A stretch of DNA of 64,000 nt from an uncultured Croceitalea sp. (GTDB lineage Bacteria > Bacteroidota > Bacteroidia > Flavobacteriales > Flavobacteriaceae): NCBI GenBank assembly GCA_947503285.1, contig CANNDD010000002.1:744001-808000 (forward strand), given 5' to 3'. Below the pieces are notes generated by a model that saw nothing but the letters and a program-made list of their open reading frames with translations, searched no databases and was not told the DNA's origin. Of the stretch, positions 31,541 to 46,281 are shown one piece after another. Within the stretch, counting starts at the first letter, position 1. Each line of letters starts with the position of its first letter. A program made the translations under genes and the position numbers.

Positions 31541-32722
31541 ATGCTAAAAGAACCCATTTCCATTACCGCTATCGGTACTGTTTCCCCCTTGGGGGATGCT
31601 TTAGATACCGTTTGGAAACACTATCGGTCAAACAATCATAACCTGATTTATACTGCTATCGGAGGGCAAAAAATTTGGGTCGGCCGCCTATTGCAACCAC
31701 TTCATGACGAAATCGAAAAACTTCGTGCGAGTGACAACAAGTACAGAGGTCTCGATGATTCCGTTCTTTACGCTTTGCATGCCTCAAGAAAGGCTATAGC
31801 AATGGCAGGTTGGGCAGGCTCTGATAATTTTGGTATTAATATAGGTTCTTCAAGGGGAGCAACAACCCTTTTTGAAAAACACCACACCACCTTTATCCAA
31901 GAGGGAAAAACGTCTACCTTAGCTTCCCCCACCACGACTTTAGGTAATATTTCATCTTGGGTCGCCCACGATTTGAAAACCAAGGGTCCCGATATTTCGC
32001 ATTCGATTACGTGTTCAACAGGTTTACATTCCTTATTAAATGGTATTGCCTGGTTAAATAGTGGCATGACCGATAAATTTTTAGTTGGTGGCAGTGAAGC
32101 TCCGTTGACACCTTTCACCATTGCCCAAATGCAGGCACTAAAGATTTATGCCAAGAATGATGAAAATGATACTGCCGCAGGTGAGGAAGTGTACCCTTGT
32201 TTGGCGCTTGACTTAGAGAAAACTAAAAATACCATGGTGTTGGGTGAAGGGGCCGTCATGGCCTGTTTAGAGAAAGATAATGCCAAAGAACCCTTGGCCA
32301 AGGTCATTGGTGTTGGCTTTGCAACGGAGCCTTTACTACACAATGTTTCCATATCGACAGATGCCCAATGTTTTCAAGATTCCATGATGATGGCACTGAA
32401 TGGGTTACCGCCTGAAAAAGTTGATGTTATCGTTACCCATGCCCCAGGCACGATTAAAGGGGATATCTCTGAGTATAAGGCAGTTGAAAAGGTTTTCTGT
32501 AACAAAATCCCATTTTTAACGACAAACAAATGGAAAGTGGGGCACACTTTTGCTACTTCAGGAATGTTAAGCATAGAAATGGCCATCTTAATGTTGCAAC
32601 ATCAAAAGGTAATCAACGTACCTTATTTGAATCAAAACGAGCTTCCTGAAAAAATCGAGACTATTATGGTCAACGCAGTTGGCTTTGGCGGAAACGCAGT
32701 TTCTATTTTACTTTCCAACTAA
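31541..32722 (+). CDS. FabF-like beta-ketoacyl synthase in the biotin locus
   Basis: A 393-residue thiolase-fold condensing enzyme. The Cys-His-His triad is intact: Cys158 in SITCSTGLHS, His300 in VTHAPGTIKGDISEYKAV and His335 in NKWKVGHTFATSG. Lys330 is also present at the expected spacing, and so is the VLGEGAVMACLE block. It is therefore probably active on acyl-ACP substrates. It follows bioA and the secreted-protein pair and lies on the bioB side of the locus. With no bioC or bioH in view, a role in building the pimeloyl chain is plausible, but a secondary lipid or pigment role cannot be excluded. Confidence 0.85.
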   Translation: MLKEPISITAIGTVSPLGDALDTVWKHYRSNNHNLIYTAIGGQKIWVGRLLQPLHDEIEKLRASDNKYRGLDDSVLYALHASRKAIAMAGWAGSDNFGINIGSSRGATTLFEKHHTTFIQEGKTSTLASPTTTLGNISSWVAHDLKTKGPDISHSITCSTGLHSLLNGIAWLNSGMTDKFLVGGSEAPLTPFTIAQMQALKIYAKNDENDTAAGEEVYPCLALDLEKTKNTMVLGEGAVMACLEKDNAKEPLAKVIGVGFATEPLLHNVSISTDAQCFQDSMMMALNGLPPEKVDVIVTHAPGTIKGDISEYKAVEKVFCNKIPFLTTNKWKVGHTFATSGMLSIEMAILMLQHQKVINVPYLNQNELPEKIETIMVNAVGFGGNAVSILLSN

Positions 32723-32888: not shown

Positions 32889-35684
32889 TTAAGCTTTTAA
32901 AAAGGCAGTAATATGTCCTAAAACCGTATCCTGATCAAAGTACCAATCGGCAAATGATACTGGGAAGACCTTAATTTGGGCCCTGTTCAAAATTCGGATG
33001 CGTTCCACAGAAAGTGCATGCACAAAATCCCCTGGGTATCCTATAAGATCAATGGCATAATAGCCCGATTTTGTTTGCAGCAAAAGATCTAGCGTAATAT
33101 CCGCGATTTTGTACCCCTCCCATAACTTTTCGTATGCCCCCTTGGGCAGGCTTGCTTGCACTTTCTTCAGGAAGACATCGCGAGCGGGCACTTTTCCATT
33201 ATAGGACTTTGATGTGTTTCTTTTTCCGTACGCATAGTATTTCTGAAAAAGACTGTCTGGTCTGTGGTCATTAGGACTACCTGAATAATAAATGTATTGG
33301 CTGTGCCTTGCCCTTGTAATGGATACATTAAAAACATCCGCTTTGTTCAGGTGGTGTTGGGCGGCGGAGTGCGTTTTACCATCCACAACCATAGAAAGGT
33401 ACATGATATCCCGTTCTTCGCCTTGGAAAGCATAGGGCGTGCCTACTTTAAATTTGTGTCGGTCTAGGGTTTCTATGTCAAAATGATGCAACAAAGTCTG
33501 TGAAATGTGTTCTACCTGGTTTCTAAATGGGGAAAGGATTCCAATGGACGATACTAGTTCTGGCTCCAATGCTGATTCCGTATCTACTAGATGAACAACA
33601 TCATCCAAAACTTGTTTTGCCTCAATGGGATTCGCTCCATTGCCCTCCCGTTTTCCTTCGGTTGCAACAAAGAACAGGGATTGTTCCTCCAGGCCTGGCT
33701 TATGGGTCATGAGCCGCAGTTCGTTGTTATAGAATTCTTGATTGCTAAATCCAATGATTTGCGGAAGACTGCGATAGTGCTCGTCCAGCATTGCAACTTG
33801 GGATCGACTTTGTAGGCTATGAATGGCAAGATCCAGTATGCTATGGTCCCTATAATCTAAGAGGAAAGGATCTACGCTTTGTAAATCCAGCTGTTGTTGA
33901 ATCCGAAACTGAATGCCCTTTGAAAGGAACGAGATGTGCCTCAATTGACTGGGGTCACCGGCAAACACGACTCTTTTGGCACGCTGTATGGCCGGGATAC
34001 AGGAAGCGATATCGCATTGTGTGGCTTCATCAATGATTACCACATCAAAAAGTTCTTTTTGAAGCGGAACCTTGTCCTTGATTTCCGATAGATTGATCAA
34101 CCAAATAGGAAAGGCCTTTAAAATAACCCCAAAATTAATTTTATTAAAAATAGCGATACGCTCAGTATCATTAGAGGTGTTAAGGGCACGATAAAATTCA
34201 TTGAAATCACTCCAATAGCGTTGGATTACTCTGAGAAGATTAAAAATATAGTACCATTTCAAAAACTCCTTGGTTTTTTTTACAGATTGGGTGTCATTGC
34301 CCATGATTTTTGCTACGAGCTCGTGTAGGGGTTCTTGAAAAGCAAGTTTGCTCCCCAATTCCAACCAAAGGGTTTTCAAATTGTCCCAGAACTTGCGCTC
34401 TTTTTGACTCAGAAACCCACTTTTTTCCTTTTCTCCCACCAACATTTTATCGTATGCACCTTCTAATTTGGCGGTATTTGTTTTGAGCTTTTGAAGTTGA
34501 CGGACAAAGGAATCAATGGCATCTCTTAATTTGGAAGGGTCGTCAAAACCATTGTGTTCATTGAATTCCTTGTGTAAAAATCGCATTGGGGAAGCGCTAT
34601 GCAACAAGGATTTTATAAAACGGCGCACCTTGGTAACATGTTTTCTTTTTCTACCCCCTCTAATGATGCAATGTTCAAAACCCAATTGGGTATTTATTTT
34701 TTCGGCGACTACATCTACGGCTTCATCTGTCCTTGAGGCTATCAAAACCGATTCCCCCCGGCTCATATGTTCTAAAGCGATTGCAGCGATGGTATAGGTT
34801 TTTCCGGTACCAGGCGGTCCAACGATCAGTGTAGTGGGATGATTGGCGGCAGAAACCAAAAGGCGCTGTTGTGCTTTACTGAGAATGGTGGGTACATAGC
34901 CCCGCAATTCTTTGTCCAGCTTGGACAATGATGTTTTCGAATTTTCGAACAAATAGGATAGTGGGGAGGAAAAATTGGTTAAACCTCCAAGCTGTTTTAG
35001 TTCGTTAAGCACCCCACGGGTCTGAACGGATTTGTCCACAATGCCCATGGCACTAAATGGGACTATTTGATATGCATCCGTAGTTTCCTTAAGTTTTCGC
35101 AATCGATACTTGAGTTGACTTAAACTAAGGTTTTTAGGATAACCCAAGAGTTCCGTAGTTTCAATTTGGGGATAGTGTTTTTGGAAAAAGCTTGCCAATT
35201 GCCCAATGTGTTGAAATTCAAAAGGGCCATTTGGTAATTCCTTTAAAAGAAGTTCGTTAAAACCATCATGGTCCTCATTATTTGCTAATAGTTGCAGCAA
35301 CGGGTAGTTCAATCGTCGGGATTTTAAATCGATCCGAGCGAAGAAAAAACCATCCTTTTCCTCTATGGAAACGTTGTGGTACAACAAGGGTGCACACAGC
35401 GATTGCAGTTTTCCTTTAAAATCAATATACGTACCGCATACGAAAAGTGATCCGTGGACAAGCTCTTTTTCTTTTTCAAAAAGTGTGGCGTTTTTTAGTA
35501 GCTGAGCTGCCTGCTCTTGGGGTATGGGAACAATGGGGTATTTGCCATTGATCAATTCCTCTTGCTCAAAAAAGATTTTGTGTGCCACCTTTGGCTTTAG
35601 GAAATTCATGATACTTATAGACCGGTTATCGGCAAGGTAGCAGTCGTGAAAATAGGTGATGATATTAGGAAGCTTACCGGTCAT
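32889..35684 (-). CDS. SF1 helicase (COG1112/UPF1-like) with nuclease-like C-terminus
   Basis: A 931-residue protein. After an N-terminal region of about 270 residues, SF1 helicase motifs appear in order: Walker A GPPGTGKT (about 289-296), ASRTDEAVD, Walker B DEATQCD (about 552), GDPSQLRHIS, DEHYRSLPQI, TPYAFQGEERD and VSITRARHSQY (about 788). The region from about 838 to 931 reads like a Vsr/DUF559-type PD-(D/E)XK fold (ITLDLLLQTKSGYYAIDLIGY and VFPVSFADW), but the metal-ligand set is incomplete. Relatives of this helicase class occur in anti-phage systems such as Mokosh. It lies 18 bp downstream of the XRE regulator, probably cotranscribed. Confidence 0.85.
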   Translation of the reverse strand: MTGKLPNIITYFHDCYLADNRSISIMNFLKPKVAHKIFFEQEELINGKYPIVPIPQEQAAQLLKNATLFEKEKELVHGSLFVCGTYIDFKGKLQSLCAPLLYHNVSIEEKDGFFFARIDLKSRRLNYPLLQLLANNEDHDGFNELLLKELPNGPFEFQHIGQLASFFQKHYPQIETTELLGYPKNLSLSQLKYRLRKLKETTDAYQIVPFSAMGIVDKSVQTRGVLNELKQLGGLTNFSSPLSYLFENSKTSLSKLDKELRGYVPTILSKAQQRLLVSAANHPTTLIVGPPGTGKTYTIAAIALEHMSRGESVLIASRTDEAVDVVAEKINTQLGFEHCIIRGGRKRKHVTKVRRFIKSLLHSASPMRFLHKEFNEHNGFDDPSKLRDAIDSFVRQLQKLKTNTAKLEGAYDKMLVGEKEKSGFLSQKERKFWDNLKTLWLELGSKLAFQEPLHELVAKIMGNDTQSVKKTKEFLKWYYIFNLLRVIQRYWSDFNEFYRALNTSNDTERIAIFNKINFGVILKAFPIWLINLSEIKDKVPLQKELFDVVIIDEATQCDIASCIPAIQRAKRVVFAGDPSQLRHISFLSKGIQFRIQQQLDLQSVDPFLLDYRDHSILDLAIHSLQSRSQVAMLDEHYRSLPQIIGFSNQEFYNNELRLMTHKPGLEEQSLFFVATEGKREGNGANPIEAKQVLDDVVHLVDTESALEPELVSSIGILSPFRNQVEHISQTLLHHFDIETLDRHKFKVGTPYAFQGEERDIMYLSMVVDGKTHSAAQHHLNKADVFNVSITRARHSQYIYYSGSPNDHRPDSLFQKYYAYGKRNTSKSYNGKVPARDVFLKKVQASLPKGAYEKLWEGYKIADITLDLLLQTKSGYYAIDLIGYPGDFVHALSVERIRILNRAQIKVFPVSFADWYFDQDTVLGHITAFLKA

Positions 35685-35702: not shown

Positions 35703-36461
35703 TTATCGCATCATTTCATGAAGTTTTTGGATCTCTTGGTGCATCAGTGTCAAGCGGCCTTCGATCATATCGGTAAAATCCGGGATTTGATTACAGAACA
35801 CATGCCGTATGTTCCAGAGCTCTTTAATGGAGGTGATGGGCATGCTAATGTCAGCTATATTTTTATGATCTGTTTTAAGCACAACTTGGTCCGAAGAAAA
35901 GAAAGTCCTTCTAAATATCAGGCTTTCGTCGGTTACCAGGACACAATAGCAACCCTTATCAAGATTCTTGTAATCTTTTCGGGCTATTTTTCGTCCAATA
36001 ATGATATCCTTTGGATAAAACCCGCGGTCTAAATGGGTCATTTCAAGATTGGGTACCTCAAAGGCCAAAGAGATCTCAGGTTGGGACACCGGTAATTGAA
36101 GCTTTGGCAAACTTCTCAGAAAAGCTTCATCTTGGAAGGAAGAAGGATATTCTGGGATAAGCGCCGCGGTAACACAACCGATAGTTGGAAAAACATTATT
36201 GGGCAGTTTTGCGGTATTCGTGGTGAAATCTGCTTTAAATTTCAATAGTTCGTTTACGGTGAGCTCATTGGTAAGGAGGTCATCTATAGAAATACTAAAA
36301 TAATTAGCAATTTTGATGATAGTCTCTATTTTTGGCTCACTTCGCTGCTCCTCATAAGCCCCTAAAGTTGCCCGTTTTAGGTCGAATATCTTCGAAAAAG
36401 CTTGTTGGCTAAGGTTTTGGACACTGCGGATTTTTTTGATGTTTTTACCGAAAAAAGACAT
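35703..36461 (-). CDS. XRE-family regulator with degenerate S24/LexA-like domain
   Basis: A 252-residue regulator. An N-terminal HTH_3 domain (about 6-62: IKKIRSVQNLSQQAFSKIF, LGAYEEQRSEPKIETIIKIA) is followed by a peptidase-S24-like fold (about 130-222). In S24 enzymes the serine lies in a G-D-S-M context; here the equivalent run is VPNLEM, with Glu140 in place of Ser. The downstream lysine region reads LIFRRTFF. Autocleavage is therefore unlikely, and the domain may bind a ligand or dimerise. It is upstream of the helicase and divergent from the PspA-flotillin operon, with candidate operators between. Confidence 0.88.
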   Translation of the reverse strand: MSFFGKNIKKIRSVQNLSQQAFSKIFDLKRATLGAYEEQRSEPKIETIIKIANYFSISIDDLLTNELTVNELLKFKADFTTNTAKLPNNVFPTIGCVTAALIPEYPSSFQDEAFLRSLPKLQLPVSQPEISLAFEVPNLEMTHLDRGFYPKDIIIGRKIARKDYKNLDKGCYCVLVTDESLIFRRTFFSSDQVVLKTDHKNIADISMPITSIKELWNIRHVFCNQIPDFTDMIEGRLTLMHQEIQKLHEMMR

Positions 36462-36477
36462 AAAATGCTAATAATAT

Positions 36478-36508
36478 TTGCAAATATAAAAAATAATTGC
36501 TATACTTG
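36478..36508 (+). promoter_or_regulatory. Candidate promoter of the YbjN-PspA-flotillin operon
   Basis: TTG (36478-36480), a 20-bp spacer and TATACTTG (36501-36508) approximate the Bacteroidota -33/-7 consensus with one mismatch. The -33 element lies within the first 15-mer. The predicted leader is about 165 nt. Confidence 0.4.
36481..36488 (-). promoter_or_regulatory. Candidate -7 box of the XRE regulator gene
   Basis: On the minus strand this reads TATATTTG, a perfect TAnnTTTG, 19 bp before the ATG at 36461. Initiation would fall within the first 15-mer, which fits autorepression. No -33 TTG was seen. Confidence 0.45.
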
Positions 36509-36682: not shown

Positions 36683-37078
36683 ATGGAAAAGAATTATCAA
36701 AAAGTCAAAGCATATCTCCAAGAATTGGATTTTGATATCGCTACGGAAAATCAGGAGGAAGGCATACTTGTCATCAATAAGGAGCAAGAAGGAATTAAGA
36801 ACGTGATCCTAGGGGTGTTTACCCCAATACTGATCATAGAGCAGCACATATTTGATATTGGCCAGGGGGATACCAAAGTATATAAAGAACTTCTGAAAAA
36901 GAACCGGGATATTGTCCACGGCGCCTTCGTGCTTGACGAAACAGGGAAAAAAGTAATTTTTAGGGACACTTTGCGCCTTCAGCATTTGGATTTGGATGAA
37001 CTGGAGGGGTCTTTGAATTCTTTGAGCTTATTATTAAGTGAGTATGCAGATCAAATTATAAACTATTCAAAACAATAA
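36683..37078 (+). CDS. YbjN/YjfI-like small protein, first gene of the PspA-flotillin operon
   Basis: A 131-residue cytoplasmic protein. I chose the ATG at 36683 (MEKNYQKVKAYLQELDFD); a longer frame would extend into the palindromic leader. The alpha/beta pattern, with VINKEQEGIKNVILGVFTPILIIEQHIF, GAFVLDETGKKVIFRDTL and the closing helix LDELEGSLNSLSLLLSEYADQII, resembles the YbjN fold and the YjfI proteins that accompany PspA homologues. That match is from memory of the fold and is only moderately certain. It ends 2 bp before the pspA-like start, so it is tightly coupled. A chaperone or adaptor role is inferred. Confidence 0.6.
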   Translation: MEKNYQKVKAYLQELDFDIATENQEEGILVINKEQEGIKNVILGVFTPILIIEQHIFDIGQGDTKVYKELLKKNRDIVHGAFVLDETGKKVIFRDTLRLQHLDLDELEGSLNSLSLLLSEYADQIINYSKQ

Positions 37079-37080
37079 AC

Positions 37081-37800
37081 ATGGTAAATTTTTTTAAAAG
37101 GTTATTTAAAATCGGGGAGGCCGAGGCAAATGCCGTAATCGACAAAATGGAAGATCCCATCAAACTTACGGAGCAAGGGATTCGGGATATGAAAGGGGAT
37201 TTGGAGAAAAGTTTGGAATCTTTGGCCCAAGTTAAAGCACTGGCCATTCGTTCAAAGAACGATACGGAGGAGTTTTTGGCCAAAGCGGAAGATTATGAAC
37301 AAAAAGCAATGCTTATTCTTCAAAAAGGACAAAAAAATGAAATTGATGGCTCCGAAGCCGATCGTTTGGCCAAAGAGGCCCTTATAAAAAAGGAAGCTGC
37401 AAGCAAGCAAGCTTCCAGAAGCAAAACGGATGCGGAAAAGTTTGATGGTTCTGTGGCCAAACTAGAGAAGAACGTGCAGGAAATTAAGCAGAACATCTCT
37501 AAATGGGAAAACGAACTGAAAACCCTAAAGGCTAGGGTCAAAGTTTCTAAAGCAACAAAGAACCTGAACAAGCAAATGGCTGAAATTGACAGCTCAAGCA
37601 CGGTTTCCATGCTAGAGCGCATGAAGGAAAAAGTGCAACAGGAAGAAGCGCTGGCAGAGGCCTATGGAGATATTGCCAATGCGTCCAAATCCATAGATGA
37701 GGAAATAGATAAAGCAGCTGATGCTTCCGAAGCGAATGCCGATGCCGATCTGGCAAAGCTAAAAGAGCAATTGGGCATGAAGAGCGACAAGGAATCGTAA
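37081..37800 (+). CDS. PspA/IM30 family protein
   Basis: A 239-residue, almost entirely helical protein of the PspA/Vipp1 (ESCRT-III-like) family. It begins with the amphipathic helix MVNFFKRLFKIGEAEANAVIDKMEDP, followed by ITLTEQ-type residues and RDMKGDLEKSLESLAQVKALA. Long coiled-coil helices run to about residue 220, with an acidic alanine-rich tail. Members bind and reshape stressed inner membranes. Downstream flotillin and DUF1449 genes fit the known PspA-flotillin partnerships. No PspF or PspBC homologues are nearby. Confidence 0.9.
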   Translation: MVNFFKRLFKIGEAEANAVIDKMEDPIKLTEQGIRDMKGDLEKSLESLAQVKALAIRSKNDTEEFLAKAEDYEQKAMLILQKGQKNEIDGSEADRLAKEALIKKEAASKQASRSKTDAEKFDGSVAKLEKNVQEIKQNISKWENELKTLKARVKVSKATKNLNKQMAEIDSSSTVSMLERMKEKVQQEEALAEAYGDIANASKSIDEEIDKAADASEANADADLAKLKEQLGMKSDKES

Positions 37801-37850
37801 ATTACATACGACCATAAAAGTTATAAGCACAATCTAAACACCAACCAACA

Positions 37851-38561
37851 TTGGAAAACTATTTCGACATCATCTTTTCACAGGTCAATATCACCTTAAG
37901 CGTATTGTTGATCATACTTATTGTCTATTGGTTGATCACGATGATCAGCGGTTTGGATTTTGACCTGGATATCGATGTGGACGTAGACGTAGACGTAGAT
38001 GTTGATGTGGACATGGATACCGGAATTGAAGGGGGAAGTATGGATTTTTCCGATGTTGCCAATGCCGAAGTAGACCGTGAGCATGTAGTGAATAAGCGAA
38101 CCCGCAAACTAAAATGGTGGCAGATCATTTTGATTTATTTCAATTTTGTTGGACTGCCATTTATGTTCACGTTCACTTTTTGGATTTTTACATGGTGGAT
38201 TATCAGTGTGCTGGGAACACTTTTTACGTTCAGCTATGATAACAGTTTTGGCTTTGTTATCGTGTTGCTGGCCTTGGTCCCTTCGCTGTTTTTTACCAAG
38301 ATCCTAACAACACCCTTTAAGTCCTTTTTTAGGAACTTGAACAAAGATGGCGATAAAGCGGTGGACTTTTTGGGAAGACAGGCCATACTGCTATCCAATA
38401 TTTCTGGGGAAAAACTGGGCAATGCCGAAGTAAACGTAGATGGAAACATCATGAACATCTACGTTAGGTCCCTTGATGGATCAGCCTTGAACTTTAGGGA
38501 CAACGTGCTTATCATCAAACAATCTGACGACAAAAATTACTTTTTCGTAAGTAGATCATAA
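37851..38561 (+). CDS. DUF1449/YqiJ-like membrane protein with Asp-Val repeat
   Basis: A 236-residue inner-membrane protein starting at a TTG codon (no ATG lies before the first membrane helix). TM1 (about 12-33) is followed by an acidic stretch of alternating Asp-Val (about residues 36-57, encoded by a repeated GACGTA hexamer near 37974-38019). Two membrane segments follow (about 89-140), then a C-terminal OB-like domain (DFLGRQAILLSNISG, NIYVRSLDG, DNVLIIKQ) as in YqiJ and NfeD partners of flotillins. It lies between pspA and the flotillin gene, so it is the probable membrane anchor of the flotillin complex. Confidence 0.85.
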   Translation: MENYFDIIFSQVNITLSVLLIILIVYWLITMISGLDFDLDIDVDVDVDVDVDVDMDTGIEGGSMDFSDVANAEVDREHVVNKRTRKLKWWQIILIYFNFVGLPFMFTFTFWIFTWWIISVLGTLFTFSYDNSFGFVIVLLALVPSLFFTKILTTPFKSFFRNLNKDGDKAVDFLGRQAILLSNISGEKLGNAEVNVDGNIMNIYVRSLDGSALNFRDNVLIIKQSDDKNYFFVSRS

Positions 38562-38595
38562 ATCATTTTAAACCACTAAAACAATACTAAAAACT

Positions 38596-40662
38596 ATGGA
38601 AGGAATCTTACCTATCATCGTAACAGGATTGGGAATACTCCTGTTTCTTATCATCGTATATTTTGCGATCATTGCCCTCTTTTATAAGAAGGTGCACCAA
38701 GGGGAAGCCTTGGTCCGTACCGGATTTGGAGGGACTAAAGTAGCCACGGACAAAGGTCTTTATGTGGTGCCTGTTTTTCACCGAGTTGAGGTGATGGATA
38801 TCTCCGTTAAGAAAATCCAGATCGAACGTATGGGTGTGGAAGGACTTATTTGTAAGGACAATATGCGTGCTGATATCAAGGTGGCTTTCTTTGTTCGGGT
38901 GAACAACGAAGTGGATTTTATCAAAAAAGTTGCCCAGACCATAGGTGTTGCACGGGCCTCAAGAAAAGAAACCTTGGAAGATCTTTTTGAGGCAAAGTTT
39001 TCAGAAGCCCTAAAAACCGTAGGAAAGAAATTCGAATTCACAGCACTGTATGAAGCACGGCGCGAATTCCGCGATGAGATTGTTGATATTATTGGTACTG
39101 ATCTAAATGGATATACTTTGGAAGACTGCGCCATTGATTACTTGGAGCAAACCGCGGTTTCCCACTTAAAACCAGACAACATCTTGGATGCAGAAGGCAT
39201 CAAGAAGATTACTGACCTTACTGCGGCCCAAAACGTCAAAGCAAACCTCATCAAAAGGGATGAGGAAAAGGTAATCCGTAAGCAAGATGTAGAAGCTCGG
39301 GAGGCGATTTTGGAATTGGACCGGCAATTGGCCGAAAAGGAAGAACAGCAAAAACGGGAGATCGCCAATATCAAATCACGTGAAGAGGCGGAAATTATAA
39401 AAGTGGCCGAGGAAGAAAAACTCAAATCGGAGAGTGCCCGTATTGCTACGGAAGAAAAACTTCAAGTAGCTGAGGAGAATAAGCAACGTCAGGTAGTTGT
39501 TGCCCTAAAGAATAAAGAACGTACCACTGCTGTAGAGACGGAACGTGTCGAGAAGGACCGTGCATTGGAGGCCACGGAGAGAGAACGGGTGGTCACTTTG
39601 GCACAGATTGAAAAAGAAAAGGTTGTTGAAGTAGAAAAGAAGAACATCCAAGATGTGATTCGCGACCGAGTGATGTTAGAGAAGGGTGTAGTAGAGGAAC
39701 AAGAGAATATGAAAGACATTCAGGCTTTTAAAGGTGCGGACAGAGAAAAGCAAGTAAAAATCACTTTGGCCGAAGCAACTGCTGAAGAGGACTTGATTAA
39801 GACTTTTAAAGCCGCAGAAGCGCAAAAAGAAGCAGCAAAACAGAAAGCAGAAGAAATTAACATTGAAGCTCAGGCTCAGAAAGAGGCTAGCGAAAAAGAA
39901 GCGGAAGCTAGAAAAACATTAGCTGAAGCAAAGGCTAAGGAGGAAGCCACTATAGGATTATCGGAGGCAGAGGTTATGCATGCCAAAGCAGATGCATCCG
40001 AAAGGCAAGGCATTGTGGAAGCATTGATCATTGAGAAAAAGGCCAAAGCAGAGGCGGCCGGAATAGAAGCGAAAGCCGAAGCTATCAAAAAAGAAGGTCT
40101 TGCCGAAGCTGATGTAATTAAGGAAAAGGCCCTTGCTGATGCTGCTGGAATTGAAGAGAAGGCCAATGCCATGAAGAAACTGGATGGGGTAGGGAAAGAA
40201 CACGAAGAGTTCAAGTTGCGACTTGACAAAGAACTTCAGGTAGACCTTGCAGAAATCAATATCCAGAAGGAGATTGCCGATGCGCAAGCACAAGTGCTGG
40301 CCGAAGGATTGAAAGCGGCCAATATTGATATTGTTGGTGGTGAATCCATGTTCTTTGAACAAATTGTGGGTCAGATAACCCGTGCCAAAGGCTTTGATAG
40401 ATTGGTACAACATTCAGAACAGGCCCAAGACATCAAAGATGCCATTTTGGGCACCGAAGATGTTGCTGGCAACCTATTGAATCGTATAAAACAATTTGCG
40501 GCGCAGTATGATATTTCCAGCGAAGACTTGAAAAACCTTTCCATAGCCAGCCTATTGGTCCAATTGAAAGGGAAGGCCACCAGCAATGATGAGAGCAATA
40601 TGTTCGAGAACTTATTGAATCTTGCCAATAGCTTGGGCATGGGCAACAAAAAGTTGAGGTAA
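38596..40662 (+). CDS. Flotillin/YqiK-like SPFH protein
   Basis: A 688-residue flotillin. An N-terminal membrane segment (about 5-28, LPIIVTGLGILLFLIIVYFAIIAL) precedes an SPFH/band-7 domain (about 35-200: GEALVRTGFGGTKVATDKGLYVVPVFHRVEVMDIS). A very long Glu/Ala/Lys-rich coiled coil (about 230-545) and a C-terminal helical domain follow. Family members scaffold ordered membrane microdomains and oligomerise. YqiK-type flotillins pair with YqiJ-like proteins, as here with the DUF1449 gene 34 bp upstream. Confidence 0.93.
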   Translation: MEGILPIIVTGLGILLFLIIVYFAIIALFYKKVHQGEALVRTGFGGTKVATDKGLYVVPVFHRVEVMDISVKKIQIERMGVEGLICKDNMRADIKVAFFVRVNNEVDFIKKVAQTIGVARASRKETLEDLFEAKFSEALKTVGKKFEFTALYEARREFRDEIVDIIGTDLNGYTLEDCAIDYLEQTAVSHLKPDNILDAEGIKKITDLTAAQNVKANLIKRDEEKVIRKQDVEAREAILELDRQLAEKEEQQKREIANIKSREEAEIIKVAEEEKLKSESARIATEEKLQVAEENKQRQVVVALKNKERTTAVETERVEKDRALEATERERVVTLAQIEKEKVVEVEKKNIQDVIRDRVMLEKGVVEEQENMKDIQAFKGADREKQVKITLAEATAEEDLIKTFKAAEAQKEAAKQKAEEINIEAQAQKEASEKEAEARKTLAEAKAKEEATIGLSEAEVMHAKADASERQGIVEALIIEKKAKAEAAGIEAKAEAIKKEGLAEADVIKEKALADAAGIEEKANAMKKLDGVGKEHEEFKLRLDKELQVDLAEINIQKEIADAQAQVLAEGLKAANIDIVGGESMFFEQIVGQITRAKGFDRLVQHSEQAQDIKDAILGTEDVAGNLLNRIKQFAAQYDISSEDLKNLSIASLLVQLKGKATSNDESNMFENLLNLANSLGMGNKKLR

Positions 40663-40673
40663 TACAAGGAATG

Positions 40674-40716
40674 GCCCCAACACTTTTTGAGGGTTGGGGC
40701 TATATTTCCCTTTTTG
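40674..40716 (+). terminator. Hairpin downstream of the flotillin gene (possible attenuator)
   Basis: The stem GCCCCAAC/GTTGGGGC (40674-40681 with 40693-40700) has an 11-nt loop and is followed by a T-rich run. It lies between the flotillin stop and the lipoyl-like gene, so it could lower expression of the last two genes. Confidence 0.6.
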
Positions 40717-40728
40717 AAATCCAATACG

Positions 40729-41052
40729 ATGCTCAGTAAAATTTCAAGATGGTTTTTTGGTTTGGACAATTCCCAAAAACAACGGGAGCTAGTCAAAGAA
40801 ATTCCTTTAGAGAAAGGAAAAGTTGAAACTATTCGCGTGCCAAACTTAGGATATGGCAATGAATATAAGCTTACAAAATGGCATGTACGACCTGGGCAAA
40901 TGGTTAAGGCTGGAGAAGTTGTTTGTGAATTGGAAACCAAAGAAATCCTTATGGAATTTGAGAGTCTATATAGCGGTCGTATACAAGCCACTTGTCAAAT
41001 TCATCAGAATCTTAAAGTGGGCGACGAAATTCTTAGAATCCAAGGGATATAG
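40729..41052 (+). CDS. Lipoyl/biotinyl-like domain protein lacking the acceptor lysine
   Basis: A 107-residue protein; I chose the ATG at 40729 over an upstream TTG that lies inside the hairpin. Residues about 34-107 align by eye with E2-type lipoyl domains: YKLTKWHVRPGQMVKAGEVVCELET, EFES and a closing VGDEILRI. The acceptor motif that normally reads E-T-D-K-A is E-T-K-E-I here, so the lysine position is Glu72 and a lysine lies one residue earlier. It is probably a non-modified barrel-sandwich adaptor. No dehydrogenase or carboxylase genes are near; it sits between the flotillin and ATPase genes. Confidence 0.75.
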   Translation: MLSKISRWFFGLDNSQKQRELVKEIPLEKGKVETIRVPNLGYGNEYKLTKWHVRPGQMVKAGEVVCELETKEILMEFESLYSGRIQATCQIHQNLKVGDEILRIQGI

Positions 41053-41132
41053 CGCAAACAGTGGTGCATAAGTCTAGGTATTAATAACTAACAAGAAGTT
41101 GGTGGTGTTCATCATCAAATCAAATAATAACA

Positions 41133-44100
41133 ATGCAGGAAGAACAACAAAACACTCCCAGCACGACCATCTTGGATGATGGCACCTATGAAATCATCCA
41201 AGGACGATTAAAAGAGCAGAAAAATGAGCTGCAGCAACGCCTGCACCAACTCAATGAGAGTAGAAAGCTTGTCTTTGGAAGTGTGGTGACCCAATTGATC
41301 GCCAACAAGCGCATCAATACGGAGAACAATTGTATCGCCAGGGATATCATAACCATTGGCAAGCATACCATTCTGGGCTATAATGTGCATTTTGGATTGC
41401 GTACCAATATTAAATTGGAAGATGTTTTTGGTATCTATACCTATCAGGATGGGAATTTTGTTCCACAATCCTTGGATCTGATGGCAGACACGGTGTTCTT
41501 AGATGATTTTATCAACCTCTATAAATATTATCGGAATACTATTTTCAGCAAGTTTGCCATCGTTGGCAATTATTTGCATATGGTCTTTCAGTTGAGTGAC
41601 AGCACTTCGGACATTAAAACCTTCAAGTGGTTGATCAAGGAGGGAGCACTGCAGTACCAAGACAACCGTAGTGACCATGAATTGAAAATGCCCAAACAGC
41701 ATGAGTTCCGTTGGACCGAGACCAATCGGGATATGCAGCGTTATGGGGAATATCCCCATGTTTCTATTTTGGATAAGGTATTTGTGGAAACGATCGGTGG
41801 GGATCTCACGATTAAAATAGAGGACAATACGGATGAGGGTCTTGGTATTTTCAGGGAAGACGTTGTTCATAAAGACCAAACCTTGGATGATGGCCAGTAC
41901 CGCTTTGCCGAGATTGGCAATTTGATCGCCATTGAAATCAAACCTTTTCAAGAGGAGGCACGGTATTTTGTTTACAATCACAAGATCCAAGAAGTAAAGA
42001 AGATCCAAAGCATCCAGGATGCCTGTATTCTACTGCCCAATGATCAAGGGGTCATTTACCCTAATGGCTACTATTTGCAATCGGGGGCTTTCAAACGCTT
42101 TGAATACGATTTGGGAGAGGTTCAGTTTTCCGAGAAAATCAGTTCGCCCAATGGGGAGGATTTCTTGTACGTTTTTTATGAATCTGAAACCGGCTTGTAT
42201 GTGTTGATGTCTTATAATGTCATTGAACAAGGGGTAAAGACCCCGATCATCTGTAACGGATTTACCCTCTTGCGGAACGGTGAGCTTTGCTACTTCAAAA
42301 CCGATGAGGAGCAGACCAAGCACCATGTCATCCAAATATGGCAGACCACATTTATGAAAGGGGATGAAGTCCCTTCCGAACATATGGACTCGCTACTTTA
42401 CAAAATAGGCAACAAAGATATTGTTGAGGCCATGGCCGAATGCCAATCGCTCATCACCTTGTTGAACAAGGAGGATAATTATGGGGGCCTATACGATGAT
42501 CTTGTTAGGTTCTCTACGGATATTTTAGACAGTTATTACTGGATCAATGAAGCGGCGGCCCACCAACTCAATGTGCCTTTGGCCGCTATCAATGAAACCG
42601 CCAATGCTGCAATAGATGAATTTGAGAAGGTGGTTCAACTCCGAAAAACCGCAGCGGCCACCACCAAGGCAACCCAAGAAACTGCCACGGAGATTTTTGG
42701 GAAGATAAAGAGTAGCTCCTTTAAATCCATTGACGATTTTGTTCAGATTCTTTCCAAGCTCCGTTCTTTTCGTGGGGAGGTTATTGGTCTAAAGGAGGTG
42801 CGCTATGTAGACCTTTCATTTATTGAAAGCTTGGAACAGGAAATTGCGGAACAGACCGATAAGGTGTCCCAGCGCTGCGTACTATTTCTTATTGATGACA
42901 AGGCCCTTGCACCCTATCAAAACCGTGTTTCGGAAAAGCAAGCCCTATTGGAAAAGGCGTCAAAAGTGGTGGAGACCAAACAGCTTCAAGATGAGGTGAA
43001 CCAGATTGCGGAAGACCTTGAAATGCTTATAGAAATTGTTTCCAACCTAAAGATCGAAGACACGTCACAAACTACAAAGATCATTGACAATATTTCATTG
43101 ATTTTTGCTTCGATAAACCAATTGAAGGCTGCGATAAAAAACAAGATCAACTCGCTTTCGGTGGAAGAGTCCGGGGCCGAGTTTGCCGCTCAATTAAAAT
43201 TGGTGGACCAAAGTGTGATCAATTACTTGGATATTTCCAGCACCCCTGAGAAAACAGAAGAATCCTTGAACAAGGTCGTGTTACAATTGGAAGATCTTGA
43301 AGGCCGCTTTTCAGATTTTGAAGACTTTATTGCCCAGATCATTGAGAAACGGGAAGAAGTTTACAATGCTTTTGAAAACCGAAAAGTGACCTTGATCGAA
43401 GCACGGAACAAGCGGACCGTGGCTTTGGAAAATTCAGCGAACCGAATTTTAAAAGGCGTACTAAAAAAGTCAATGACCTTTGATAGCCTGAACGATATCA
43501 ACGGGTATTTTGCCGGTGATCTTATGGTTAGTAAAATCCGGGATATCATCCAGCAACTTTTGGAACTGGAAGATTCTGGAAAGGCAGAAGCTATTCAAAC
43601 TGCCCTTAAAGTGGCCAAAGAAGATGCCATACGTAAGTTAAAGGATAAGCAGGACCTGTATGAAGATGGTGAGAACATCATCAAATTGGGCAAACATAAA
43701 TTTGGTGTCAACAAACAAGTTTTGGACTTGACCATTGTGTATAAGGACCAAGGATTGTACTACCATTTGACGGGCACCGATTTTTATCAGGAAATCCATC
43801 ACGATACCCTTACGCGATCCAAGGCCTATTGGAACCAAGAACTGGTCTCTGAAAATGAAACGGTCTATCGTGCTGCGTATTTGGCGTACAAGATTTTCAA
43901 TGGTGAAGACAAGGGCCATTTGCATGATCTTTCGAAAACAGCCCTTAAAAAAATGGTGACTGAAGCAACCAGTAAAAACTATACGGAAGGTTATGTAAAA
44001 GGGGTACATGATGAAGATGCCCATAACATCCTTTTGGCCCTGGTCTCAAAACACCATGATTTGGGGGTGTTAACCTTTGCGCCGGAAATCCGTGCCTTTG

Positions 44101-46016
44101 CACAGTTTTTTTGGCAAACGCTGAATACAACCGATTTTGAGCAGTGGAACGAATCACTTAAGAATGCAGGGCAGGTGTTGAAGGCATTTCCGAGCAGCAC
44201 GGCACATGAGAAAGTGGTTGTACAGTTGGCCGCCGATATCGCAACTTTTGCTAACAGCAGTGGGTTGTTCAACGAAAAGTTGAGCAATGATATTGCCCAG
44301 TATCTCTTTGAAGAAATCAAGGAACACAATGATTTTGTGGTCAGCCATGCCTCCCAAGAACTCTATGGGCAGTTTGCAAAGCAATTAAAGGGCAAAAAAC
44401 TGTATGCCAAGATAAAAGAAAAAGTGGCCATTGATCCCCACAGCGAAATGGACGACGTCCAAGATCGTATTGCATTGGCCTGGCAATGGGTGAAGGCCTA
44501 TCTTGGGGATGCTTCCGAAACTGAACAACAGTACCTGTACGAAGTTTGTTGTTTGTTTTTGTTTCCCCATAGCAATCGAACAATCGCAACAAGCCCAGCT
44601 GTAGACATCAAACAAATGAAGGGTAGCCATGCTAGTTTAAAGGATGGTGTCTTCGCATTTGATTACCACAAATTTATTGCTGCACTGGCCCACTTTAGCA
44701 AGTTTGAGGTACAAGCTTTTACGGCCTTTAGCAAAGCCAAACATGAATTGACGGAAGCGGTAAAAGCGGATTTAAAATTGGAAAGTTTTAAACCAAGGGT
44801 GTTGTCATCCTTTGTCCGAAACAAACTGATCGATCAGGTGTACTTCCCTTTGATTGGGGATAATCTTGCCAAACAATTGGGAAGTGCCGGCGATACCAAA
44901 CGTACGGATAGGATGGGCATGCTGCTCCTTATTTCGCCGCCGGGCTATGGTAAAACAACCTTAATGGAATACATGGCCAACCGTTTGGGCTTGATTTTTA
45001 TGAAGATCAACGGACCTGCCATAGGCCATGAAGTAAGCTCGGTGGACCCCAGTACAGCAACAAACTCGGCAGCCAAAGAAGAGTTGAAAAAGCTCAATTT
45101 GGCGTTTGAGATGGGCAATAATGTAATGTTGTATTTGGATGATATCCAGCATTGCAATCCAGAATTTTTGCAAAAATTCATTTCTCTGGCGGATGGAACC
45201 CGTAAAATAGAAGGGATATACAACGGCGTGCCCAAAACCTACGATTTAAGGGCTAAAAAGTTCTGCGTTATCATGGCCGGAAACCCGTATACAGAAAGCG
45301 GGGATAAGTTTCAAATTCCGGACATGTTGGCCAACCGGGCAGACATTTACAACTTAGGGGATATCATTGGAGATACCGCGGATTTGTTTCAATTGAGCTT
45401 GATCGAAAATGCTTTAACCTCCAATCCCATTTTGCAGCAGCTCAGTAGTAAATCCTTTGAAGATGTCTACCAATTATTGCATATGGTGGAAAGCGAAACG
45501 GAGGATGCCTCTTTACTAAAAGGCAATCACAACAGACAAGAAGTTCAGGATTATTTGGCGGTTTTGGATAAGGTAATTGAGGTACGTAATACTGTTTTAA
45601 AAGTGAATGAAACTTACATCAAATCGGCCGCTATGGAGGATGCCTATAGAACGGAGCCTTCGTTTAAATTGCAAGGCTCCTACAGAGATATGAACAAACT
45701 GGTGGCAAAAATTGTTCCCATTATGAACGATGGGGAACTGCAAACGCTTTTGCTGTCACATTACGAAAGTGAGTCGCAGACCTTGACCAGTGCTGCCGAG
45801 GCCAATTTATTGAAATTCAAAGCTCTTACTCAATCCTTATCAAAAGAGGAGGAAGCGCGATGGGCGTCTATAAAGGAGACATTTTTAGAGCAGAACAAGG
45901 TTAAAAGTTTTGGAAACCAAGCTGCAATGTTCCAATTGTTGGAACAGGTTTCGGAGTTTAACAAGCATTTGGGGGGCATTCAAAAAGCGCTTCAGAAGCA
46001 GGTGAAAGAGAAATAA
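41133..46016 (+). CDS. DUF3686 AAA ATPase (annotated elsewhere as DNA repair ATPase)
   Basis: A 1627-residue protein. The N-terminal region matches DUF3686 proteins (TYEIIQGRLKEQKNELQQRL, FGSVVTQLIANKRINTENNC and RDIITIGKHTILGYNVHFGL). Helical coiled-coil segments occupy about residues 480-860. An AAA+ module near the C-terminus has Walker A SPPGYGKTT (about 1267-1275), Walker B MLYLDDIQ (about 1331-1338) and sensor-1 MAGNPYTESGD. The DNA repair label attached to relatives is weakly founded; in this operon a membrane-remodelling or complex-disassembly role with PspA and flotillin is at least as likely. It is the last gene of the operon. Confidence 0.85.
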   Translation: MQEEQQNTPSTTILDDGTYEIIQGRLKEQKNELQQRLHQLNESRKLVFGSVVTQLIANKRINTENNCIARDIITIGKHTILGYNVHFGLRTNIKLEDVFGIYTYQDGNFVPQSLDLMADTVFLDDFINLYKYYRNTIFSKFAIVGNYLHMVFQLSDSTSDIKTFKWLIKEGALQYQDNRSDHELKMPKQHEFRWTETNRDMQRYGEYPHVSILDKVFVETIGGDLTIKIEDNTDEGLGIFREDVVHKDQTLDDGQYRFAEIGNLIAIEIKPFQEEARYFVYNHKIQEVKKIQSIQDACILLPNDQGVIYPNGYYLQSGAFKRFEYDLGEVQFSEKISSPNGEDFLYVFYESETGLYVLMSYNVIEQGVKTPIICNGFTLLRNGELCYFKTDEEQTKHHVIQIWQTTFMKGDEVPSEHMDSLLYKIGNKDIVEAMAECQSLITLLNKEDNYGGLYDDLVRFSTDILDSYYWINEAAAHQLNVPLAAINETANAAIDEFEKVVQLRKTAAATTKATQETATEIFGKIKSSSFKSIDDFVQILSKLRSFRGEVIGLKEVRYVDLSFIESLEQEIAEQTDKVSQRCVLFLIDDKALAPYQNRVSEKQALLEKASKVVETKQLQDEVNQIAEDLEMLIEIVSNLKIEDTSQTTKIIDNISLIFASINQLKAAIKNKINSLSVEESGAEFAAQLKLVDQSVINYLDISSTPEKTEESLNKVVLQLEDLEGRFSDFEDFIAQIIEKREEVYNAFENRKVTLIEARNKRTVALENSANRILKGVLKKSMTFDSLNDINGYFAGDLMVSKIRDIIQQLLELEDSGKAEAIQTALKVAKEDAIRKLKDKQDLYEDGENIIKLGKHKFGVNKQVLDLTIVYKDQGLYYHLTGTDFYQEIHHDTLTRSKAYWNQELVSENETVYRAAYLAYKIFNGEDKGHLHDLSKTALKKMVTEATSKNYTEGYVKGVHDEDAHNILLALVSKHHDLGVLTFAPEIRAFAQFFWQTLNTTDFEQWNESLKNAGQVLKAFPSSTAHEKVVVQLAADIATFANSSGLFNEKLSNDIAQYLFEEIKEHNDFVVSHASQELYGQFAKQLKGKKLYAKIKEKVAIDPHSEMDDVQDRIALAWQWVKAYLGDASETEQQYLYEVCCLFLFPHSNRTIATSPAVDIKQMKGSHASLKDGVFAFDYHKFIAALAHFSKFEVQAFTAFSKAKHELTEAVKADLKLESFKPRVLSSFVRNKLIDQVYFPLIGDNLAKQLGSAGDTKRTDRMGMLLLISPPGYGKTTLMEYMANRLGLIFMKINGPAIGHEVSSVDPSTATNSAAKEELKKLNLAFEMGNNVMLYLDDIQHCNPEFLQKFISLADGTRKIEGIYNGVPKTYDLRAKKFCVIMAGNPYTESGDKFQIPDMLANRADIYNLGDIIGDTADLFQLSLIENALTSNPILQQLSSKSFEDVYQLLHMVESETEDASLLKGNHNRQEVQDYLAVLDKVIEVRNTVLKVNETYIKSAAMEDAYRTEPSFKLQGSYRDMNKLVAKIVPIMNDGELQTLLLSHYESESQTLTSAAEANLLKFKALTQSLSKEEEARWASIKETFLEQNKVKSFGNQAAMFQLLEQVSEFNKHLGGIQKALQKQVKEK

Positions 46017-46254: not shown

Positions 46255-46281
46255 AAAGCCGAAGTAAAAACTTCGGCTTTT
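46255..46281 (+). terminator. Strong terminator upstream of bioB
   Basis: The perfect 11-bp stem AAAGCCGAAGT/ACTTCGGCTTT (46255-46265 with 46270-46280), with an AAAA loop, is followed by T-rich sequence. Confidence 0.92.

Follow-up and report, generated by a model that had tools for sequence, protein, structure and literature searches.

A probable self-regulated membrane-maintenance operon with a YqiJ-flotillin-ATPase core in an uncultured Croceitalea sp.

Our analysis concerns an operon of predicted membrane-associated proteins in a 64,000-nucleotide stretch of DNA (the window; positions 744,001 to 808,000 of contig CANNDD010000002.1, assembly GCA_947503285.1) from an uncultured Croceitalea sp. 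of the Flavobacteriaceae, whose genome comprises 4.34 Mb in 29 contigs. Positions 36683-46016 of the window contain six open reading frames (ORFs) on the same strand, separated by gaps of 2, 50, 34, 66, and 80 bp when the ATG of the lipoyl gene is taken as 40729. This much agrees with a preliminary description made from the sequence, which reported six codirectional genes with short gaps. A conserved divergent gene encoding a helix-turn-helix (HTH) regulator (35703-36461, minus strand) was absent from that description of the operon. The locus comprises the following features:

35703-36461, minus strand: divergent regulator with a Cro/CI-type HTH (HTH_3/HTH_19) and a C-terminal S24 (LexA/CI)-like region
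36465-36483, no strand assigned: putative palindromic operator ATGCTAATAATATTTGCAA, located 3 bp away from the start codon of the HTH gene (consensus TTGCTAATnnnATTTGCAA)
36477-36508, plus strand: probable Bacteroidota-type promoter, with TTTG at 36477-36480 inside the operator, a 20-bp spacer, and TATACTTG at 36501-36508
36683-37078, plus strand: CesT/Tir-type chaperone-like protein (CesT_Tir_1, PF22550, 4.6e-54; the YbjN match, E 0.047, is below its cut-off)
37081-37800, plus strand: PspA/IM30 protein (PspA_IM30, PF04012, 3.8e-44; the only PspA_IM30 match of the genome)
37851-38561, plus strand: YqiJ/YuaF-like (DUF1449) membrane protein, placed via aligned relatives and an annotated orthologue
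38596-40662, plus strand: YqiK-like flotillin (SPFH) with a long coiled coil, placed via aligned relatives and annotated orthologues
40729-41052, plus strand: orphan lipoyl-fold protein between flotillin and ATPase (Biotin_lipoyl, PF00364, 3.1e-11, run from 40732)
41133-46016, plus strand: DUF3686-DUF7902-AAA+ ATPase of 1627 residues (DUF3686 3.9e-171, plus DUF7902 and AAA)
46255-46280, plus strand: terminator-like hairpin at the operon end

The window has no tRNAs and no RNA families at gathering score. Most of the gene names given earlier (PspA/IM30, DUF1449 membrane protein, YqiK-like flotillin, lipoyl-fold protein, and 1627-residue AAA ATPase) are upheld by these assignments, whereas the first gene, then called YbjN-like, belongs to the CesT/Tir type instead. 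The YqiJ-like and flotillin-like proteins of the window have no Pfam match of their own, and their identities derive from relatives: YqiJ_N matched 2 of 15 aligned relatives of the former (the window copy is not among them), Band_7 matched 3 of 14 aligned flotillin relatives, and orthologues of the operon are annotated as "DUF1449 family," "SPFH domain-containing," and "flotillin family." The YqiJ-like protein also matched YuaF (2k14) below threshold (E 0.94). In PDB profile searches, this protein and the ATPase gave weak matches only, and the flotillin gave no match. The Pfam content of the ATPase is limited to an N-terminal DUF3686, DUF7902, and AAA-type domains. Across 49 homologues, its Walker A sequence SPPGYGKT, the DD pair of Walker B, and the N residue of sensor 1 are invariant.

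We examined how far this arrangement extends beyond the window, counting by locus among 37 fetched loci and adding the window as a 30th six-gene locus where indicated. DUF3686 itself is uncommon, being present in 8/296 genomes of a phylum sample and 32/397 of a family sample. The genes for HTH regulator, CesT, PspA, YqiJ, flotillin, and ATPase were all found in 29/37 loci, and this six-gene order is not due to chance. The gene set had been predicted to recur together in other genomes, and so it does, apart from the lipoyl gene, which was labelled in 0/37 loci. The remaining loci were also informative. One (L004) has labelled CesT, YqiJ, and ATPase genes together with a readable flotillin and a PspA match, and lacks an HTH match. 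Two others (L021 and L037) terminate at contig ends, and another contig from the genome of L021 (L048) carries HTH-CesT-PspA-YqiJ-flotillin. The final five (L011, L012, L013, L014, and L019) consist of YqiJ-flotillin-ATPase only.

At the level of whole genomes, the flotillin was counted in what is apparently the same 397-genome draw used for the ATPase, judging from matching handles and totals. It occurred in 32 genomes (one of these being a weak SPFH match of 123 residues) and coincided with the ATPase in 31 of the 32 ATPase genomes; in the remaining genome, G372, the contig begins only ~1 kb ahead of the ATPase, with no flotillin there. CesT_Tir_1 occurred in 35 genomes, 29 with the ATPase and 6 without, while the ATPase was found without CesT_Tir_1 in G313, G372, and G414. 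Two of these, the core-only genomes G313 and G414, are each estimated to be 99% complete and yielded no PspA_IM30 match. Conversely, reading four of the six genomes with CesT and no ATPase (G310, G465, G519, and G645; the matches in G555 and G671 lie at contig edges and were omitted) contributed to a set of seven loci in which CesT is found apart from the ATPase: HTH-CesT-PspA in four (L041, L042, L043, and L045), HTH-CesT in L046, and CesT-PspA in L044 and L047. In L043, two CesT_Tir_1 genes on opposite strands flank a single regulator, with PspA located behind one of them.

Phyla beyond the Bacteroidota were sampled only via a plasmid collection, which is a biased source. It supplied 12 records with a nearly full-length ATPase at 34-48% identity, 11 of which were read (the one omitted, H3, is another Proteus mirabilis record and has an identity equal to that of H2). 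A flotillin gene lies directly upstream of the ATPase in 11/11 of these loci, which span Bacteroidota, Pseudomonadota, Actinomycetota, and Deinococcota. A YqiJ-like gene is present in 9/11, the two Streptomyces records being those without it, and PspA falls within the fetched stretch in only 2/11, with the CesT_Tir_1-PspA module confined to Hymenobacter. Together with the core genomes lacking a PspA match, the 11/11 flotillin versus 2/11 PspA occurrences suggest from gene content that the ATPase is linked to flotillin more than to PspA. In one of the plasmid loci (L051, pQBR103, 84407-105236), the core directly follows a set comprising YjfI, PspA, rhomboid, DUF2491, DUF350, DUF1190, and glutathionylspermidine synthase.

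A regulator orthologue is located beside the operon in 29/37 fetched loci. Peptidase_S24 matched 11 of 17 aligned regulator members, although it is missing from the domain table of the window copy itself, and NCBI names the Hymenobacter orthologue "LexA family." By eye, the window regulator has no obvious Ser/Lys pair, the catalytic motif of a self-cleaving LexA/CI-type S24 domain. The candidate operator was sought as TTGCTAATnnnATTTGCAA in 30 extracted HTH-CesT intergenic regions, the window's among them, and was present with ≤2 mismatches in 29/30, compared to shuffle means of 5.1-6.8 mismatches and a lowest single shuffle of 2. It is positioned 1-4 bp from the regulator start codon, except in L007-L009, where the distance is 41-44 bp; the one region without such a site (L010) is an intergenic region of 52 bp. 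Within its own genome, the window operator is the sole exact match and has no 1-mismatch counterpart, while the totals of 2-mismatch sites were 7 and 9 versus control totals of 9 and 8. Since the exact site is single in the genome, the regulator is probably dedicated to this operon, and the uniqueness of the site makes the inducing signal searchable by reporter. The likely promoter was called from the Bacteroidota consensus TAnnTTTG, and its TTTG sits in the right arm of the operator; promoter-like boxes were likewise visible by eye in the leaders of other loci. Operator-like sites also accompany the CesT loci away from the ATPase, with ≤2 mismatches in 5/5 loci having the HTH gene versus 4 mismatches in the 2 loci without it. 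The best operator-like site of the five core-only loci was no better than 3 mismatches in any of them.

Many relatives also have a short, unannotated reading frame between the promoter and CesT that would encode a hydrophobic peptide of 13-26 residues. The first hydropathy cut-off for this leader peptide was picked after viewing the sequences, and with this post hoc cut-off it was found in 17/26 leaders of ≥150 bp (shuffle mean 0.68, maximum 4 in 200). Other cut-offs and two more controls were run later. With a limit of 12-30 residues, four cut-offs recovered a peptide in 21, 19, 16, and 9 of 26 leaders, as compared to 5, 4, 0, and 0 of 26 on the reverse strand and 3, 3, 1, and 0 of 86 other intergenic regions. 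In an alignment of peptides chosen by eye from 22 loci, several related pairs keep their length and frame despite many base differences, and the altered codons mostly still specify hydrophobic residues. Few of these base changes are synonymous, so frame, length, and hydrophobicity are the only grounds for a coding constraint on the leader peptide. The leader of the window itself contains no convincing hydrophobic peptide, its best candidate scoring 1.8, and none was seen in the standalone units L041, L042, and L045. In the relatives, this peptide represents a candidate membrane sensor of a size below that seen by ordinary gene finders. A conserved motif, TTTTnGTAwTATTrA, occurs behind or overlapping the end of the leader peptide; it is present with ≤1 mismatch in 17/30 leaders, mostly 16-55 bp before CesT (e.g., L022, L024, L030, L031, L035, and L036), and with 4 mismatches in the window.

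We also compared the site of the operon with the same site in operon-free genomes. The slot in question lies between a ketosynthase-like gene (31541-32719 of the window) and bioB (46344). Five genomes lacking the operon (G182 and four others from the genus of the window) instead have genes there for proteins of ~192 and ~477 residues, with three further genes in L062. The ~477-residue protein of L063 matched Band_7 (1.2e-30), a FloT model (1.8e-51, under its cut-off), and human flotillin-1 in the PDB (1.3e-25), while the C-terminus of the ~192-residue protein resembles YqiJ (hhalign probability 92.7). A FloT-type flotillin was found in 0/32 operon genomes, a search without a positive control of its own for which the matches of the same query in other samples stand in. 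By comparison, it was found in 11/32 hand-picked operon-free genomes and in 86/383 genomes of an evenly drawn family sample, the latter including a few partial or broken matches. The exclusion between operon and FloT has a Fisher value of 2.7e-4 (about 3e-4), which is phylogenetically uncorrected and takes the operon-free remainder of the 383 as ~352, the 383 draw not being identical with the 397 draw; the hand-picked set without the five slot genomes gave 0.0066. In each of five genera (g1, g10, g142, g158, and g215), one sampled species has the operon and others have FloT.

Fifteen FloT loci were read, five selected by bioB position and ten from FloT matches. The FloT pair occupies the ketosynthase-bioB slot in 11/15 of them, some with extra genes, and L072 has the ketosynthase side only. 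The operon occupies the same slot in the window (where a helicase gene is present too), L030, L031, and L036, and in L034 a ketosynthase match lies on the regulator side with one ORF between. The genus g215 provides a direct contrast, as its slot holds FloT in L066 and the operon in L030. These data suggest that the operon and a FloT-YuaF-like pair are alternatives within the family, sometimes at one slot, and that the operon replaces an older flotillin pair kept by relatives at the same chromosomal spot. What bacterial flotillins do remains a matter of debate. Here, the operon's flotillin gene is accompanied by a dedicated motor gene wherever it was read and was not found together with the plain FloT pair in any one genome, which offers a clean genetic contrast. 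It also raises the question of what a motorised flotillin does beyond a plain one and why a cell would not have both.

The operon class itself is known. According to the available portions of Ravi et al. 2024 (PMC11237479), one class of operons combines CesT/Tir-PspA, a band-7/flotillin protein, a beta-propeller AAA+ ATPase, and a 3TM protein of the YqiJ/YuaF type. The window operon shares these five protein types (the YqiJ/YuaF type probably so, to judge from its relatives), their grouping, and the general proposal of chaperone-like membrane dynamics. Its CesT/Tir-like gene adjoins the PspA gene by Pfam, as in that class, while for the beta-propeller of the ATPase there is only a model with a predicted local distance difference test (pLDDT) score of 35. 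An abbreviated flotillin-YqiJ-ATPase form is likewise described in what was available of that study, and the arrangement of L051 would unite two of its operon classes. The lipoyl gene sets the window apart, as it is a private insertion here. The preliminary description was therefore right to connect this membrane-maintenance operon with related literature, and its main gene set was already published; the novelty it had seen in the full set and in a helicase linkage does not hold, the helicase being a flanking gene. The consulted text of Ravi et al., whose figures could still draw a regulator, has no divergent HTH regulator, operator, leader peptide, FloT exclusion, or shared slot for this class; its main text does not contain "XRE," "micropeptide," "lipoyl," or "small protein," and the mentions of "HTH" among the matches listed do not concern this class. 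Popp et al. 2022 (PMC9239133), in the part available, remark in general terms upon HTH regulators near pspA. No literature was found on DUF3686 or on "flotillin" with "DNA repair ATPase." The switch, leader peptide, and FloT exclusion with its slot were not found in the literature as far as it was accessible, by searches that were not aimed at each by name. These three elements, i.e., the dedicated switch, the leader peptide, and the FloT exclusion with a shared slot, are what the present analysis adds at the family level and what merits follow-up.

Three known systems are instructive for comparison. In B. subtilis, the membrane localisation of PspA is experimentally SPFH-dependent according to the accessible text of PMC8581546. 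The PspA-YdjI(SPFH)-YdjG/H system is alike in that PspA and an SPFH protein act together at the membrane, whereas it involves other partners and the same text names no ATPase. The FloT-YuaF pair is similar in combining a flotillin with a small membrane protein having a YqiJ-like C-terminus, but neither a motor nor PspA was seen beside the pair in the loci read. As for HflK/C-FtsH, its SPFH proteins are also coupled to an AAA+ motor (PMC12048511, consulted in part), but FtsH is a protease, while the DUF3686 ATPase, which is co-inherited with its flotillin, has no Pfam protease domain.

Taken together, we consider it slightly better than an even bet that these genes form an exchangeable, self-regulated membrane-maintenance system with a YqiJ-flotillin-ATPase core, a separable HTH-CesT-PspA module, and FloT as its alternative. 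The YqiK-like flotillin and its YqiJ/DUF1449 partner would form a membrane scaffold, upon which the DUF3686 AAA+ motor would dock and use ATP to remodel or unload the scaffold together with its membrane-protein clients, in analogy to SPFH-AAA pairs such as HflK/C-FtsH. The separable module with its HTH/S24-like regulator, CesT, and PspA would add a PspA arm for membrane patching and repair and would also bring expression under control. The operator overlapping the -33 box is probably bound by the regulator, which would repress the operon until a membrane signal acts on its C-terminal domain. A role in membrane stress would fit with this scheme. A more far-reaching proposal, which we put forward tentatively and at somewhat less than even chance, is that Bacteroidota swap flotillin cassettes, a plain FloT-YuaF-like pair versus a motor-driven system with a LexA-like switch and a PspA arm, that would not tolerate each other within a cell and would trade places at a single slot, with the unannotated membrane peptide of 13-26 residues that starts many copies serving to sense or anchor.

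Several observations weigh against the proposed scaffold motor and its exchange with FloT. The adjacency of the genes would also be expected of a motor acting on YqiJ or on a client. Distance correlations did not cleanly separate the partners of the ATPase (flotillin 0.93, PspA 0.86, CesT 0.87, and HTH 0.87), and three of the five core-only genomes (G297, G326, and G543) have a PspA_IM30 match elsewhere. Single-sequence structure models were of low confidence (pLDDT 48.3 and 35.2). With respect to the exchange, 26/30 six-gene loci were not seen in the ketosynthase-bioB slot, the FloT pair lies elsewhere in 3/15 loci (L068, L074, and L075), and the exclusion statistics assume independent genomes, an assumption that does not hold.

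The preliminary description had suggested a different role for the motor, namely that the ATPase may disassemble or load PspA/flotillin assemblies in the manner of Vps4. In the version weighed here, it would disassemble PspA polymers, with the flotillin merely as an anchor. PspA is an ESCRT-III relative (PMC10936438, seen in part), the accessible text of Ravi et al. invokes Vps4 as an analogy for PspA/Snf7 and the AAA+ ATPases associated with them (PMC11237479), and PspA and the ATPase share an operon in 29/37 loci. The ATPase itself also has features in its favor, as it matches Pfam AAA at 5e-07 and Cdc48/p97-type AAA proteins make up most of its best PDB sequence matches, which are short. 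However, AAA_5 (dynein-related) was matched as frequently as AAA, 15/15 each. A Vps4-like motor would have PspA as its obligate partner, whereas G313 and G414 carry the core without a PspA match, and the fetched stretches of the plasmid loci from four phyla include PspA in only 2/11. The 99%-complete core genomes and the co-inheritance with flotillin thus argue against Vps4-like action on PspA as the basic function and for a motor of an SPFH scaffold. We regard the former as quite improbable, though the ATPase may act on PspA where PspA occurs. It is also unlikely, if a little less so, that the system is a quality-control chaperone in which flotillin would confine unfolded membrane proteins for unfolding or extraction by the ATPase, with CesT and PspA as holdase and patch. 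The flotillin of S. aureus stabilises unfolded proteins (PMC11222466, seen in part) and the FtsH-HflK/C analogy applies here as well, but Pfam labels no protease domain in the six operon genes. This explanation overlaps with the scaffold motor that we favor and differs from it in the substrate.

An anti-phage or mobile-element defence cassette would account for the patchy spread of the ATPase in both genome samples and for the copies on plasmid-collection records. The HTH of the regulator points the same way, being similar to phage repressors of the RstR family (6.7e-14, below the cut-off of that family) and matching the PADLOC models RmrA (9.4e-11) and HTH_VI (1.2e-09). On the other hand, none of the six operon proteins has a PADLOC match better than E 0.0045, ATPase homologues are absent from the phage collection and viral contigs searched, and the closest published system belongs to an envelope-stress class. 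We therefore consider a defence function highly improbable.

The lipoyl protein had been suggested as a possible adaptor, and the operon as linked to a helicase unit. As an adaptor, the lipoyl protein is rejected, given that its gene was labelled in 0/37 loci, where flotillin-ATPase gaps with enough room for it were also read, and that comparison with 38 other relatives gave no match above 42% identity. Nearly all of these matches lie within longer frames and would be lipoyl domains of E2-type enzymes. Its lysine is located one residue earlier than in the E2-like domain of its own genome (ETKEI versus ETDKA), with a glutamate at the aligned E2 lysine, and with this shift the protein is probably not lipoylated. 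The gene is a private insertion. In seven loci (L022, L024, L026, L028, L004, L012, and L025), the flotillin-ATPase gap contains unrelated small ORFs that resemble, by eye, GIY-YIG, REP-associated transposase, or DUF559 types, as if this gap, also the site of the window lipoyl gene, tolerates insertions. The helicase, a superfamily 1 protein (AAA_11/AAA_12, IGHMBP2-like; 32889-35684, minus strand) that adjoins the regulator, matches several anti-phage helicase models. It is likewise rejected as a part of the system and is a flanking gene, its homologue being present in 1/37 loci (L030), where it lies beyond the ketosynthase-like gene. In L023 and L032, the start of an ORF beside the regulator resembles, by eye, a different helicase.

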